A stretch of 64,000 nt of DNA, from contig JAJPIF010000023.1 in NCBI GenBank assembly GCA_021324885.1, forward strand, positions 1 through 64,000. Direction: 5' to 3'. Within the stretch, counting starts at the first letter, position 1; each line of letters starts with the position of its first letter. The notes under the pieces are model-generated. The model was not told the DNA's origin, ran no database searches, and saw nothing but the letters and a program-made list of their open reading frames with translations. This DNA comes from Pseudomonadota bacterium. GTDB lineage: Bacteria > Desulfobacterota > Binatia > Binatales > Binataceae. The position numbers and the translations under genes are program-made. Positions 6,461-12,384 of the stretch are shown here, one piece after another.

Positions 6461-7234
6461 ATGAGTTTCACCGAGAGTTCACACGATGTGGCCGGAGGCA
6501 AAATCCAGTTGCTTAAGGACGGCAGCGGTCCCCCGGTGGTCGTTTTCCATCACGATATCGGCAATCCGGGATGGCTGCCGTATTACATGGAGCTGGCGGA
6601 AGACCACACCGTGTATGTCCCCTCCCATCCGGGTTACGGCAAGTCGGAGCGGCCCGAATGGGCCCGCAACGTGCGTGACATCGCCTGCCTCTATCAGCGC
6701 CTGCTCAAAGACCTGGGGCTCAACTCGACGGCGGTGGTTGGCCTGGGTTTCGGCGGCTGGATCGCGGCTGAGATGGCGACGATGTGCCATCATGAGTTCA
6801 CCCATATGGTGCTGGTCAACGCTATGGGTATCCAGCCTACGCGCGGCGAGATTATCGACCAGTTTCTAATCAGCACGCTCGACTACGTCAGGGCGGGCTT
6901 CGCCGATCAGCAGAAGTTTGCCGATTTGTACAAGGAGCGGCCCGACGTCGATCAGTTGGTCCAGTGGGAGATCAACCGCGAGATGACGACCCGCATCGCG
7001 TGGAAGCCCTACATGTTCAACCAGGCGATGCCGCATCTGATCAAGACGGTGACGGTGCCGACGCTGGTGGTGTGGGGCAAGCACAATCGCGTGGTGCCGC
7101 TGTCGTGCGGCGAGCGCTATCAGCAGTTGATGCCCAGGGCGAAGCTGGAGATCATCGAGGGCAACCATTACCTGGAAGTCGAAAAACATCATGAACTCGC
7201 CCGCTTGACCAAGTCCTTCCTCGCGGGCAAGTGA
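6461..7234 (+). CDS. Alpha/beta-hydrolase-fold protein lacking the nucleophile and acid
   Basis: The 257-residue protein is a full-length alpha/beta-hydrolase fold, but its catalytic residues are changed. The nucleophile elbow reads GLGFGG, with Gly96 (codon GGT at 6746-6748) where the family has Ser, Asp or Cys. The acid position reads WGKHNRVVP, with Asn209 where Asp is usual. The histidine (GNHYLE, His236) is kept. It is therefore unlikely to be an ordinary esterase. It could be a binding or scaffold protein, or catalyse a non-hydrolytic step such as a lyase reaction. GGGGAG six bases before the ATG is a good ribosome binding site. It is the first gene of the set and is followed 41 bases later by the luciferase-like monooxygenase. 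Confidence 0.8.
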   Translation: MSFTESSHDVAGGKIQLLKDGSGPPVVVFHHDIGNPGWLPYYMELAEDHTVYVPSHPGYGKSERPEWARNVRDIACLYQRLLKDLGLNSTAVVGLGFGGWIAAEMATMCHHEFTHMVLVNAMGIQPTRGEIIDQFLISTLDYVRAGFADQQKFADLYKERPDVDQLVQWEINREMTTRIAWKPYMFNQAMPHLIKTVTVPTLVVWGKHNRVVPLSCGERYQQLMPRAKLEIIEGNHYLEVEKHHELARLTKSFLAGK

Positions 7235-7275: not shown

Positions 7276-8529
7276 ATGCATCTGATGTATTTTACGGAAC
7301 AGCCGATGTCGGCCTATCCGAAGGAGGAAGGCGACCGCTACGGCTACACCGCGTTGCTTTTCCCCAACAAGTTCTTTGACGCCGCCGAAGGCAGCCGTCT
7401 CTATAATGAACGGCTGGAGGAGTATCGGCTGGTCGAAGAGGTCGGTTACGACGGCATCATGCTCAACGAGCACCATACGGCGCCGTTCTGCATGCAGGCC
7501 AAGATCAATATCTGCGCGGCGATTCTCGCGGCGATCACCAAGCGGGTGAAGATCGTGCTGCTGGGCAACCCGTTGCCCATCGCCGACAATCCCGTGCGGC
7601 TGGCCGAAGAACTCGCGATGATCGACATGATCTCCAAAGGCCGCCTGGTTTCCGGATTCGTGCGTGGCGGCGGCGTCGAATCGTTGCAGGCCAATGCCAA
7701 TCCCGCCTTCAACCGTGAACGCTTTGAAGAAGCGCATGATCTGATCGTCAAGACCTGGACGACACCCGGTCCGTGGCGATGGGAGGGCAACCATTACCAG
7801 CTTCGCGTCGTCAATCCGTGGGCGCTGCCGCTGCAGAAGCCCCATCCGCGGATCTGGATCCCCGGCGTGTCCAGCCGCGAGACCATCGTCTGGTCCGCGC
7901 AGCATCGCTATCCCTATATCGCGCTCAACCTGCCGATCGAAGAGAGTAAGAACGTCTGGAAGATCTACGATCAGGTGGCGAAGGAGAGCGGATACGAAGC
8001 GGGGCCGACCGAGCGCGGCTATCTGATTCGCTGCCACGTGGCGGAGACCGAGGAGAAGGCGATTCGCAACGCGCGTGAGTTCATGTGGATGCAGGGCGAG
8101 TTCACCGGCCTGACCCATCCGGTATGGGCGGCGCCGTCAGGCTATCTGGGGCCGTGGGCGCGCCGGGCAATGGCCGAGTTGCGGGCAGGTTACACCCACG
8201 TCCGCGGCGCTAACGCGTCGCTGGAGCGGCAGATGCAAAACCTGACGTTGATTGCGGGCACGCCGAAGACTGTCGTCGAGAAGCTGCGCATCATCATGGA
8301 AGAGACGCGCCCCGGAATTCTCGCCTTGTACGGTAATGACGGCCGCATCAATCACGAGGACTCCAAGACCTGTATCCGGCTGACCGGTCAGGAGGTCCTG
8401 CCCGCTCTGCGCGAAATCGGCAAGAGTCTTGGGCTGGACAGCCCCTTTGACGTCAATACGCCCGTCAGCCTGGCGTATTCCGGCGTGCAGCCGCCAAAGC
8501 CCTCCGCGAGCGCCGCCGCGGCGAGTTGA
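7276..8529 (+). CDS. Luciferase-like (LLM class) flavin-dependent monooxygenase
   Basis: A 417-residue member of the bacterial-luciferase TIM-barrel family, which uses reduced FMN or F420 to oxidise a substrate with O2. Visible family features are EEVGYDGIMLNEHH (about 50-65), the DNPVRLAEELAMIDMIS segment (about 95-112), GRLVSGFVRGGG and PHPRIWIPGVSS. An alanine/proline-rich tail follows from about 405. GGGAG lies upstream of the ATG. Closely spaced behind the defective hydrolase and ahead of two VOC proteins, it is the most likely oxygenating step of this gene set. The substrate cannot be told from sequence. Confidence 0.85.
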   Translation: MHLMYFTEQPMSAYPKEEGDRYGYTALLFPNKFFDAAEGSRLYNERLEEYRLVEEVGYDGIMLNEHHTAPFCMQAKINICAAILAAITKRVKIVLLGNPLPIADNPVRLAEELAMIDMISKGRLVSGFVRGGGVESLQANANPAFNRERFEEAHDLIVKTWTTPGPWRWEGNHYQLRVVNPWALPLQKPHPRIWIPGVSSRETIVWSAQHRYPYIALNLPIEESKNVWKIYDQVAKESGYEAGPTERGYLIRCHVAETEEKAIRNAREFMWMQGEFTGLTHPVWAAPSGYLGPWARRAMAELRAGYTHVRGANASLERQMQNLTLIAGTPKTVVEKLRIIMEETRPGILALYGNDGRINHEDSKTCIRLTGQEVLPALREIGKSLGLDSPFDVNTPVSLAYSGVQPPKPSASAAAAS

Positions 8530-8647: not shown

Positions 8648-9118
8648 ATGAATCTGCGCAGCATCTACCATATCAACATCAATTGCACCAACCTCGAGCG
8701 CTCGCTGGAATTCTACAAAATGCTTGGCTTCAGAGAGGTGGTGGATTTCGGCGAGGGCGGCAGTCCTGAGCTGGCGCGCGGATTGAGGATGCCGGATGAT
8801 TCGCGCTCGCGCGCCCGTCTGTTGCAAATCGGTGATGATCCGTATTGCAGTCATATCGACCTGATCGAATGGCTCAATCCGCGCAGCCACAAGCGGCCCT
8901 ACGACCGGCTCGACAATCTGGGTATCGCGCGGGTGTGCTTTTACAGCAAGGACCTGGAAAAGGACGTTGAGGAACTCAAAGCCAAAGGCGTCAAGTTTTT
9001 TTCCGATCCGATCACGATCAAATACAAGGGCGGGCAATCCACCGTGGTTTGCTTCGAGGATCCCGACGGCACCGTTTTGGAGCTGGTGCAGTACAAGAAG
9101 CGCGCCGCGAAGGTTTAG
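8648..9118 (+). CDS. VOC-superfamily (glyoxalase/extradiol dioxygenase fold) protein, paralogue 1
   Basis: A 156-residue VOC protein with two beta-alpha-beta-beta-beta halves: CTNLERSLEFYKMLGF at the start and FEDPDGTVLELVQY at the end. The metal-site positions read His8 (IYHIN), Glu in LIEW, Arg instead of His in GIARV, and Glu in VLELV, so one of four usual ligands is missing. It is closely related to the protein encoded at 9266 and is probably a tandem duplicate. Such proteins isomerise, epimerise, or cleave C-C bonds next to oxygens. Its place between an oxygenase and an SDR suggests it works on the oxidised intermediate. Confidence 0.8.
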   Translation: MNLRSIYHININCTNLERSLEFYKMLGFREVVDFGEGGSPELARGLRMPDDSRSRARLLQIGDDPYCSHIDLIEWLNPRSHKRPYDRLDNLGIARVCFYSKDLEKDVEELKAKGVKFFSDPITIKYKGGQSTVVCFEDPDGTVLELVQYKKRAAKV

Positions 9119-9265: not shown

Positions 9266-9835
9266 TTGCCGACAGAAATCAAAAAATGGTGGTCTCGCGT
9301 CCTGCGCTCCGCGCCGGTTCCGGCACCGGCACCGCCGGCGCAGGCGCAGCCTGAGAGCCGCGAACAGTTGGCCGATTCCATCTATGGCGTGAGCGTCAAC
9401 TGCACCAACCTGGAGCGTTCGCTGGAGTTTTACCGGGCCATCGGATTCAAGGAGATCGGTGATATCGCGGAAAGCGGCGGTGGCGCGCTGGAAAAGGCCC
9501 TGCGCATCCCCAACCCGCGCGCCCGCGGCCGACTGCTCAAGTTGGGCGATGATCCGCGTGCGATCAATCTCAATCTGATCGAATGGATAAGCCCGCGTAC
9601 CGAGGGACGCGCCTACCCGCGGCTCAATCACGCCGGCATCAGCCGTATTGCGCTGCACACGTCCAACCTGCAAAAGACCTACGAGGAACTCAAAAGCAAA
9701 GGTATCGAGTTTTATTCCGAGCCGCAGGTGATGCAGTTTCCCAACGGCAGTTCGCTGTTCGTTTGTTTCGAGGACCCTGACGGGACGGTGCTGGAGTTGC
9801 TCGAATTCCGTCCGGTTGAGGCGAGCCGAACCTAA
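9266..9835 (+). CDS. VOC-superfamily protein, paralogue 2
   Basis: A 189-residue VOC protein sharing long blocks with its upstream neighbour (NCTNLERSLEFY, LIEW, CFEDPDGTVLEL). The first metal ligand is also lost here (IYGVS, Gly for His), and the third is again Arg (GISRI), leaving two Glu. It also carries a ~38-residue proline/alanine-rich N-terminal extension. The only in-frame start is a TTG at 9266 without a strong ribosome binding site, so the exact start is uncertain. With two differently depleted sites, the pair might act as a heterodimer; that is inference. Confidence 0.75.
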   Translation: MPTEIKKWWSRVLRSAPVPAPAPPAQAQPESREQLADSIYGVSVNCTNLERSLEFYRAIGFKEIGDIAESGGGALEKALRIPNPRARGRLLKLGDDPRAINLNLIEWISPRTEGRAYPRLNHAGISRIALHTSNLQKTYEELKSKGIEFYSEPQVMQFPNGSSLFVCFEDPDGTVLELLEFRPVEASRT

Positions 9836-9894: not shown

Positions 9895-10650
9895 ATGGCG
9901 GAAAGCAAGGTGGCAATCGTGACCGGGGCCGCGCGTCCCTGGGGAATCGGTTTCAGCGTGGCGCAGCAATTGGCGGAAAAAGGACTGGACGTCGCCATCG
10001 CCGATGTGCGGGAGGATTGGGGCACGGAATCCGCAAAAAAAATCAGCTCCGATACCGGGCGGCGCGCGATTTTCGTAAACATGGACGTGACCAGCCGCTC
10101 CAGCGTCAGCGCCGCCGTTGAACAAGTCGCCAGAGAGCTCGGACGGATCGACGCGTTGGCCAATGTTGCCGGGATAATTATTCAGGAGCCGCTGGAAAAG
10201 ATGACCGACGAGGCGTTCGACCGCCAGATCAACGTCAACCTGCGCGGCACCGCTCTGACCTGTCAGGCCGTAATCCCGCATATGCGCAAGGCCGGCGGCG
10301 GCAGAATCGTCAATATCGCGTCGGGCGCCGCTTATCAGGCCTTGTACAATCAGGCCATATACGCGGCGACCAAGGCCGGCGTGGTTGCATTGAGCAGAGT
10401 GCTGGCCCGCGAGGTGACCCGCGACAGGATTGTCGTGACGGTCGTCGCGCCGGGTGCGACCGCCACCGCCATGGGCAAGGAGGGCGCGCCCGAACCGCAG
10501 GATCTCGCGCGGATGGTGCCGCATATGCCGTGGGGCCGAGTACTGGAACCCAGCGAAATCGCCGGCGTGGTCGTTTATGCGCTGACCAACCCCAGTCATA
10601 TCCTGACCGGACAGGTGCTGCATTGCTACGGCGGGGCCTATATGGTGTGA
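9895..10650 (+). CDS. Short-chain dehydrogenase/reductase (SDR)
   Basis: A 251-residue classical SDR. The nucleotide-binding loop is TGAARPWGIG (about 10-19), a two-residue-longer version of TGxxxGIG known in some FabG-like subfamilies. NVAG, Ser in NIASGAA and the YAATK catalytic Tyr/Lys pair are all in place. It would interconvert an alcohol and a ketone using NAD(P)H. GGGAGG lies upstream of the ATG, and the gene follows the second VOC gene by 59 bases. Confidence 0.88.
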   Translation: MAESKVAIVTGAARPWGIGFSVAQQLAEKGLDVAIADVREDWGTESAKKISSDTGRRAIFVNMDVTSRSSVSAAVEQVARELGRIDALANVAGIIIQEPLEKMTDEAFDRQINVNLRGTALTCQAVIPHMRKAGGGRIVNIASGAAYQALYNQAIYAATKAGVVALSRVLAREVTRDRIVVTVVAPGATATAMGKEGAPEPQDLARMVPHMPWGRVLEPSEIAGVVVYALTNPSHILTGQVLHCYGGAYMV

Positions 10651-10752
10651 CCGACCCGGCGCTTCCAGGGAAGGGACGCGGAGTTGGTAGCGTTATTTTT
10701 TTAATTGAGAGATATGCAAGTGAACCCACCAGATCGGGGAGCCGAGCCCCGG

Positions 10753-12384
10753 ATGAAGTCGTATGAGGCGGAGCGCGCCAGTTATCGTGTCGAGGTGCCG
10801 ACCCGCTTCAACGCCGTCCTCGATATTGTCGAAAGCTGGAGCGTTCAGGAGCCCGACGCGCCCGCGCTGGTTTCAATTGGCGCCGGCGGCGAGCTGGTGG
10901 CTGAACAAAGCGCCGCCGACCTCGCACGGGAATCGCGGCGGATGGCGCGCGCACTGATCGACCTCGGAATTGGGAAGGGCGATCGCATTGTGGTGATGCT
11001 GCCGCGCGTGCCCGCCTGGTACACGGCGATGCTCGGCGCGATCCGGATCGGCGCCGTGCCTATCCCCACGCCGAATCTGTCCACGGGCAGGGACATCACC
11101 TACAGGGCGAAGGCATCGGGCGCGATCGCGATCGTGACTGACGCGGCGGGCGCCGCCAAAGTTGACGAGGTCGCGGGCGAACTCCTTACCATCCGCCATT
11201 TCGTGCGCTGGTCTGCGGAACGTTCCGCGAGCGGACGATGGCATGACCTCGAACATCTGTTGGATCGCGCCGGCGACGGCGAAACTCCGTCAGATCCGAC
11301 CGGGCGCGACGATCCGATGCTGATCTTCTTCACCAGCGGCACGGTGTCTTATCCCAAGATGGTGCTGCATACGCAGTCATACGCTCTGGGGCACGTCGCC
11401 ACGGCGCGTTTCTGGCATGATCTGCGCGCTGGCGACCGCCATTGGACAATTTCTGATACCGGATGGGCGAAAGCGGCGTGGGGCGGCCTGTTCGGTCAAT
11501 GGCACGAGCGCGCCTGCGTGGTGCAGGTTGCGCTGGGAAAACCCGACGCCGACACGATTTTGGAAATCATCCGCAAGCACCAAGTCACGTCCTTTTGCGC
11601 GCCCCCAACCTTGTACCGGATGCTGGTGCAGGCCGATCTCAAGGCCCACGACCTGTCATGCCTGCGCCATTGCACCAGCGCCGGCGAGCCGCTCAATCCG
11701 GAAGTGATCAGGGCCTGGCGCGAAGGCACCGGCGGTCTGACTGTTTATGACGGTTACGGCCAGAGCGAAACGACGGCGCTGGTCGCGAATTACCGCGCGA
11801 TGGAGGTGCGGCCGGGCTCGATGGGCAAGCCGGTGCCGGGCTACGAAGTCGCAATCGTCGATGACGACGGCAGGCGCGTCGAAGTCGGAGAGGTCGCCAA
11901 CATCGCGGTGCGCACCGAACCGCGTCCGATCGGGTTGTTTTCGGGTTACCTCGGCGACGAAGACGCCACCCGCCGCGCCTTTCGTCAGGGATGGTATTAC
12001 ACCGGCGACAAGGGCTGGATGGACGAGGACGGCTACTTCTGGTTCGAGGGACGCGCCGACGATGTCATCACCTCGGCGGCCTATCGAATCGGCCCGTTTG
12101 AAGTCGAGTCCGCGCTGGTCGAGCATCCGGCCGTGATGGAAGCGGCGGTGGTCGGCAAACCCGATCCTGAACGGACCGAGATTGTGTGCGCGTTCTGTAT
12201 CCTGGCGCCGGGATGGACGCCGTCAGACGATCTGACCCGCGAACTGCAGGATCATGTCAAGCACGTCACCGCACCATACAAGTATCCGCGCGAGATCCAT
12301 TACGTGACGGAGTTGCCCAAAACCATCAGCGGCAAAATCCGCCGCAGCGAACTGCGCCGCGGCCTGCGTGAAGGACGACGCTGA
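10753..12384 (+). CDS. AMP-forming acyl-CoA synthetase, medium-chain (ACSM) type
   Basis: Adenylate-forming ligase that would activate a carboxylic acid with ATP and CoA. Motifs: P-loop TSGTVSYPKMVLH, the ACSM-typical SDTGWAKAAWGGLFGQW, YGQSETTALV (A5), YYTGDKGWMDEDGYFWFEGRAD (A7-A8, hinge), and the C-terminal PKTISGKIRRSELR with the catalytic Lys (A10). The ATG at 10753 starts the family-like KSYEAERASYRVEVP and has GGGGAG upstream; ATG 10714 or TTG 10705 would add 13-16 residues. Downstream of oxygenase and SDR genes, it probably channels an acid product into CoA-thioester metabolism. Confidence 0.88.
   Translation: MKSYEAERASYRVEVPTRFNAVLDIVESWSVQEPDAPALVSIGAGGELVAEQSAADLARESRRMARALIDLGIGKGDRIVVMLPRVPAWYTAMLGAIRIGAVPIPTPNLSTGRDITYRAKASGAIAIVTDAAGAAKVDEVAGELLTIRHFVRWSAERSASGRWHDLEHLLDRAGDGETPSDPTGRDDPMLIFFTSGTVSYPKMVLHTQSYALGHVATARFWHDLRAGDRHWTISDTGWAKAAWGGLFGQWHERACVVQVALGKPDADTILEIIRKHQVTSFCAPPTLYRMLVQADLKAHDLSCLRHCTSAGEPLNPEVIRAWREGTGGLTVYDGYGQSETTALVANYRAMEVRPGSMGKPVPGYEVAIVDDDGRRVEVGEVANIAVRTEPRPIGLFSGYLGDEDATRRAFRQGWYYTGDKGWMDEDGYFWFEGRADDVITSAAYRIGPFEVESALVEHPAVMEAAVVGKPDPERTEIVCAFCILAPGWTPSDDLTRELQDHVKHVTAPYKYPREIHYVTELPKTISGKIRRSELRRGLREGRR

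Follow-up and report, generated by a model that had tools for sequence, protein, structure and literature searches.

A subfamily of α/β-hydrolase-fold proteins with glycine at the nucleophile elbow, encoded next to a luciferase-like monooxygenase

The nucleophile is dispensable in HOD, QDO and AqdC, cofactor-free dioxygenases of the α/β-hydrolase fold. According to the accessible parts of PMC10548524 and PMC3961685, HOD can do without its Ser and AqdC naturally carries Ala at this position; the base is a His aided by Asp, and mutation of this His/Asp dyad affects HOD strongly. Ser mutants of MhpC and of Escherichia coli MenH are weakened yet functional, MhpC retaining some activity, and the His and Asp of E. 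coli MenH are essential (PMC3097144, accessible part). In RutD, which is encoded in the E. coli rut operon (TIGR03611) in an operon-like run of genes with the luciferase-like monooxygenase (LLM) RutA, the elbow carries Ala for Ser (GHALGA), and His and Asp are kept. The meta-cleavage-product C-C hydrolases (CarC, CumD, BphD, HsaD and MhpC) use Ser in their natural forms, and the S-to-A entries among the structures listed here were engineered.

The window analysed, which is the whole stretch of 64,000 nucleotides, comes from a soil bacterium with a genome of 4.5 Mb. An intact open reading frame at 6461–7234 on the + strand, starting with ATG, encodes a protein of 257 amino acids that falls within the α/β-hydrolase superfamily: it scored 59.3 bits against Pfam Abhydrolase_1 (PF00561; cut-off 25.8), and its predicted structure (one model; pLDDT 94.0, pTM 0.93) matched 6i8w with a Z of 31.0. 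The features of the gene and of the run that it heads are as follows.

6461..7234, + strand: α/β-hydrolase-fold protein of the Gly-elbow subfamily, 257 aa (ORF, Pfam, model, 85 clade members)
6740..6757, + strand: nucleophile elbow GLGFGG, residues 94–99 (sequence; Gly96 in 85/85 clade members)
6977..7015, + strand: cap motif REMTTRIAWKPYM, residues 173–185 (R173, E174, R178, K182, Y184 and M185 each in 85/85 clade members, counts partly inflated by the recruitment patterns)
7085..7087, + strand: Asn209, acid position (codon AAT; Asp instead in 76/85 clade members)
7166..7168, + strand: His236 (codon CAT; kept in 85/85 clade members)
7276..8529, + strand: LLM, the conserved partner (Pfam Bac_luciferase, PF00296, 134.4 bits, cut-off 27.9; 3′ of the hydrolase in 79/80 loci)
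8648..9118, + strand: VOC/glyoxalase-fold protein 1, same run (within the best 80 of 118 loci, L051 and L052 alone have close copies; L126 has a 30% match)
9266..9835, + strand: VOC/glyoxalase-fold protein 2, same run (within the best 80 of 118 loci, L051 and L052 alone have close copies)
9895..10650, + strand: short-chain dehydrogenase/reductase (SDR), same run (profile matches)
10705..12384, + strand: AMP-binding acyl-CoA ligase, same run (profile matches)
12501, + strand: esterase-like gene, same run (ORF list, profile scan)

Compared with the canonical Ser/Cys/Asp triad, the window protein has Gly96 in place of the nucleophile (codon GGT, 6746–6748, in the context VVGLGFGGW, where Ser is expected), Asn209 in place of the Asp or Glu acid (in VVWGKHNRVVP) and a conserved catalytic His, His236. 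Gly96 lies in the elbow turn, since in the model a strand ends at residue 95 and a helix begins at 97. A preliminary description made from the DNA alone had reported an intact frame of this fold with Gly96, Asn209 and His236; the ORF, the Pfam match, the sequences at the elbow and acid site and the model all agree with it. In the window genus the protein is also one residue shorter before the catalytic His (window 7160–7174, reading GNH and not GxGH), a feature of three of the 85 clade members (L001, L002 and L003).

A species-level genome collection was scanned; 118 stretches encoded a relative, and the best 80 were retained. Recruits were found by cap-motif patterns over residues 168–175 and 178–185, so that conservation at these residues is inflated; Gly96 is outside the patterns. 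In the best 80 of the 118 homologous loci the elbow Gly and the His were found in 80/80, with Asp at the acid site in 73/80 and Asn in 7/80. Within the first 50 loci, the eight of 51 matches with >50% identity (window included) all had Gly, and the 43 below this level comprised 40 with Ser and three with Phe. When a profile of the eight Gly-type proteins was run against 41 genomes of the order, the eight Gly-type matches scored 465–506 bits, clearly set apart from all others at 268 bits or lower. The 247 loci, when pooled, contained 196 non-redundant members of the family, with the triads Ser-Asp-His (103), Gly-Asp-His (77), Gly-Asn-His (9), Cys-Asp-His (4), Phe-Asp-His (2) and Phe-Asp-Asn (1). 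The Gly clade was defined as 85 non-redundant Gly rows (76 with Asp, 9 with Asn; L198 left out). Gly96 and His236 both occur in 85/85 of these and Ser at the elbow in 0/85, from which we conclude that a glycine in place of the nucleophile is a genuine character of the subfamily.

The preliminary description had proposed a true subfamily if Gly and Asn proved conserved in homologues next to an LLM. For Gly this was borne out, in 79/79 of the loci with an LLM (best 80 of 118). It was not for Asn, the acid site being Asp in 73/80 loci and 76/85 clade members. A joint Gly + Asn signature was accordingly rejected: Asn is a minority state (7/80 best loci; 9/85 in the clade), and its distribution over the 32 Gly rows placed on the tree requires at least five changes. 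Both substitutions had also been attributed to single-base steps (AGT to GGT, GAT to AAT). Such steps cannot be shown, because the codons of congeners differ (GGT, GGG and GGC for Gly96 across the window and two congeners, each with a full-length open frame; AAC twice for Asn in the congeners) and because Gly is common to the whole clade.

The nearest relatives come from metagenome-assembled genome (MAG) records titled Proteobacteria (Centralia soil), Candidatus Binataceae, Binatota and Deltaproteobacteria; where these could be matched to genomes they belonged to the window's genus or family. The pair of Gly-type hydrolase and LLM was met again under the labels Binatota, Rokubacteriota, Pseudomonadota, Chloroflexota and Actinomycetota, many of these records being MAGs with unsure labels, and several carriers are isolates, for example Reyranella soli and Vineibacter terrae. 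In one contig titled as a Klebsiella pneumoniae MAG (L058), hydrolase and LLM both group with sequences titled Binatia or Binatota, and the record label looks doubtful. Outside the clade, Phe replaces the nucleophile in L012, L048 and L020 (elbows GYFFGG and GHFIGG); none of the three is followed by an LLM, and L020 is also without the His (GNCPP). A separate Ser/Gly change was seen in a relative of this Phe group (L198:2582–3376; GHGIGGW, Gly-Asp-His), without an LLM neighbour.

Trees were built from 85 of the 196 non-redundant hydrolases, 31 of the 85 clade members among them, and from 66 LLM partners; the sets were partly hand-picked to cover variants, the trees are unrooted with SH-aLRT values as their only support, and one long row (L183) is unsure. 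In the 85-row tree the Gly clade was monophyletic (SH-aLRT 99), also when the elbow and triad columns were masked, and it was nested in Ser-bearing rows, adjoining a 20-row Ser group with a join support of 86. The LLM partners of the Gly-type hydrolases likewise formed one clade (97), adjoining 16 partners of the same 20-row Ser group (join 92). The hydrolase and LLM trees agree in showing a single Gly-type clade beside that Ser group; therefore the two genes of the cassette seem to have diversified together, with a single loss of Ser at the root of the Gly clade. This direction, from Ser to Gly, rests on nesting in unrooted trees.

The hydrolase of the window gave dN/dS values of 0.081 and 0.085 against two congeneric genomes, which gave 0.068 between themselves, at dS 0.62–0.73; for the LLM a value of 0.029 was obtained (one pair). 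By these ratios and the codon variation at Gly96, the changed site is under purifying selection. Homologues at the same locus with Ser and Asp had been named beforehand as the sign that the window copy is decaying; Ser was seen in no member of the clade (0/85), and the gene is under purifying selection.

A homologous LLM gene of the same orientation immediately followed the hydrolase in 79/80 loci (best 80 of 118) and in 84/85 clade members, and in the single clade member without a visible LLM (L092) the contig ends after 96 bp. Across 82 hydrolase–LLM junctions, with the LLM start placed by motif, the median gap was 11 nt; 37 junctions were at ≤6 nt, seven of them overlapping, and the gap in the window is 41 nt. 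An LLM also followed in 85/96 Ser-type relatives with ≥900 bp downstream and in 4/4 Cys-type relatives, and in 0/3 of the Phe type. Seven further copies were examined in the window's own genome, out of nine other listed matches: all were Ser-type, six with an LLM downstream and one without. A comparison of the LLMs that accompany the Gly group with those of the Ser group (77 versus 59 sequences) revealed 13 nearly fixed positions that differ or are gapped, for example Q9/R, M11/Y, Q74/G and M272/G, which is consistent with a different substrate. Among the open frames searched, no fusion of the two domains was found.

The hydrolase gene had been described as leading an operon: it is the first of a same-strand run that continues with the LLM, two VOC proteins, an SDR, an acyl-CoA ligase and an esterase-like gene, and co-transcription is putative. 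The order from hydrolase to ligase is preserved in L051 and L052. Elsewhere in the window, a 682-aa FMO-like monooxygenase frame (484–2532) has its flavin domain from about residue 157, preceded by a long N-terminal part. No conserved third gene was seen: the largest cluster covered 17/80 loci when merged two-gene clusters, other LLM genes and frame shadows were excluded, the excluded clusters reaching up to 80 loci and one of 31 loci lying antisense at the LLM. Given the short length of many loci and the coarse clustering, by single linkage of stop-to-stop frames, a rarer third gene in common could have escaped notice. Beyond the pair, neighbours were lineage-limited. They include an Amidohydro_2 gene in a 10-locus cluster (three members scanned, L053, L063 and L077, all positive), an HpaB-type gene in L063 and further LLM genes around Reyranella-type loci. 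Together, the acyl-CoA ligase, SDR and VOC genes of the window and the Amidohydro_2 and HpaB-type genes of other loci may indicate that ring or aromatic compounds are broken down.

The window protein resembles RutD in fold, in the loss of the elbow Ser and in adjoining an LLM; however, it scored 41.2 bits against TIGR03611, for which the cut-off is 238.5, and BLASTP revealed no significant similarity to E. coli RutD. Its LLM matched E. coli RutA over just 67 residues (28 bits, BLASTP), none of the 18 NCBIfam matches of this LLM was to a RutA-named model, and no rut gene was found by name among the scanned genes of the run. An assignment as RutD is thus ruled out by the curated model and BLASTP, and the LLM is not close to RutA. 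In HOD the acid is Asp126, 25 residues past Ser101, whereas the acid column of the Gly clade is 209, 113 residues past Gly96, and holds Asn in the window; residues 119–125 of the window protein read VNAMGIQ and contain no acid, as compared with HOD Asp126 by sequence position. Together with PlaF, the C-C hydrolases are the closest structural neighbours among the matches listed (Z 28.5–31.0), but are only 17–23% identical to the window protein; identity over all 50 listed neighbours is just 16–23%. The Ser-bearing hydrolase–LLM cassettes of the same family, six of which lie in the window's genome, share gene order and type of partner; their hydrolases are 32–41% identical to the window protein and appear on the tree as sister or further relatives. 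They differ in retaining Ser-Asp-His, and their LLM partners differ from those of the Gly group at the 13 nearly fixed positions.

The preliminary description had suggested a search for a compensating nucleophile. No replacement Ser, Thr or Cys reached ≥95% conservation in the 85-member clade; the nearest candidate, Ser62 (80/85), was rejected since Ser-bearing relatives also have Ser or Thr there. Residues of possible catalytic use that are present in 85/85 members are His236, Asp133, Tyr142, Glu174, Lys182 and Tyr184. Glu174 and Lys182 are typical of the clade when set against the 59-member Ser-bearing sister group, in which Ala predominates at 174 (44 members) and Glu or Gln at 182 (37).

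Our best explanation, to which we give about an even chance, is that the Gly-clade protein is a nucleophile-less enzyme that uses His236 as general base on a metabolite shared with the LLM, either its substrate or its product. Without Ser no acyl-enzyme would form. His236, assisted by the Asp that most members have at 209, or by Asn as in the window, would act as general base or acid and deprotonate the substrate, or a water molecule sitting in the space vacated by the Ser side chain. The target might be the substrate or a labile product of the LLM, and the reaction tautomerization, C-C or C-N cleavage, water addition or oxygenation. Invariant Gly and His, an LLM neighbour wherever the contig reaches, low dN/dS in both genes and concordant trees support this explanation. 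It is weakened by the Asn at the acid site in the window and in 9/85 members and by the residue missing before the His in the window genus, and the clade-invariant E174 and K182 could do something quite different.

The main rival, which we regard as unlikely though deserving of serious attention, is a pseudoenzyme with no chemistry of its own, serving as a structural or regulatory subunit of the LLM or as its substrate chaperone. Absence of the nucleophile in 85/85 members, adjacency to the LLM in 84/85 with short or overlapping junctions, the matching hydrolase and LLM clades and the repeated switching between Asp and Asn at position 209, which occurred at least five times, would all fit such a role. 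His236, however, is invariant (85/85) and would not be needed by a dead site, and the Ser-bearing relatives keep the LLM pairing as well (85/96 with ≥900 bp downstream), so pairing is independent of a dead site; nor did the ORFs searched include a frame holding both domains. The preliminary description had offered binding as an alternative to a new activity; the invariance of His236 argues instead for retained acid–base chemistry over binding alone. A hydrolase with a relocated nucleophile, in which the clade-typical Glu174 or the conserved Asp133 would attack with help from Lys182 and Tyr184, appears improbable. E174 and K182 are present in 85/85 clade members against mostly Ala and Glu or Gln in the sister group, and D133 too is in 85/85, but E174 is found in 16/29 distant Ser-bearing members and D133 in 57/59 of the sister group. 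As both occur in Ser-bearing members, neither strictly tracks the loss of Ser, and conservation at 173–185 is in part an effect of the search patterns.

That the gene is a relic decaying in the window genome is hardly credible. Two triad positions have changed and one residue is missing before the His in the window genus; against decay stand a dN/dS of 0.07–0.09 at dS 0.62–0.73, full-length frames in three congeneric genomes and retention of Gly through three different Gly codons and in 80/80 homologues (best 80 of 118). For Gly, decay of the window copy is ruled out by the dN/dS and the 80/80 count; it could concern the Asn and the missing residue of the genus alone. Since Gly is a subfamily trait, the LLM pairing is kept, the clade is monophyletic and dN/dS is 0.07–0.09, this looks like a working, uncharacterized protein family. 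Catalysis by His236 as general base is favoured over a dead partner subunit or a relocated nucleophile because of the Ser-independent His/Asp precedents in HOD, AqdC, MhpC and MenH, together with RutD.

Because Asp matters in HOD and MenH, as reported in the accessible parts of the papers cited above, the window protein is the least typical member for a His-base mechanism, having Asn209 and lacking one residue ahead of its His. A member with Asp, for example the Reyranella soli protein (L094), is a better test case, and the isolates R. soli and V. terrae are hosts in which function is testable. We tentatively propose, as a possibility somewhat short of probable, that the pair constitutes a previously undescribed two-component system, in which a nucleophile-free hydrolase-fold partner would handle a labile oxygenated LLM product by His-base chemistry, the elbow residue having been swapped among Ser, Cys and Gly as the monooxygenase changed substrate. 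A literature search found no account of the cassette or of a glycine elbow, within the wording used and a coverage that leaves out most subscription papers. If the elbow was indeed swapped along with the LLM substrate, the family would form a natural series from hydrolase to non-hydrolytic enzyme. Annotation based on fold would probably call the Gly-clade proteins hydrolases, although 85/85 lack the defining residue of hydrolysis.

A cassette that exists with Ser, with Cys and with Gly at the elbow gives a direct view of a hydrolytic site lost while the partner gene is kept. Two cassette types occur in tandem in Alphaproteobacteria: in L076 (12143–14286), L079 (12171–14154) and L085 (12020–14005) a Gly-type pair is followed directly by a second pair, consisting of a Cys-elbow hydrolase (GACFGGW) and its own LLM. 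A Ser-type cassette (elbow GTSIGGW) is carried on a 2.1-Mb plasmid of Neorhizobium galegae (L257, CP090555.1) that is typed as conjugative; an FMN_red-family gene lies about 2.3 kb beyond the cassette.
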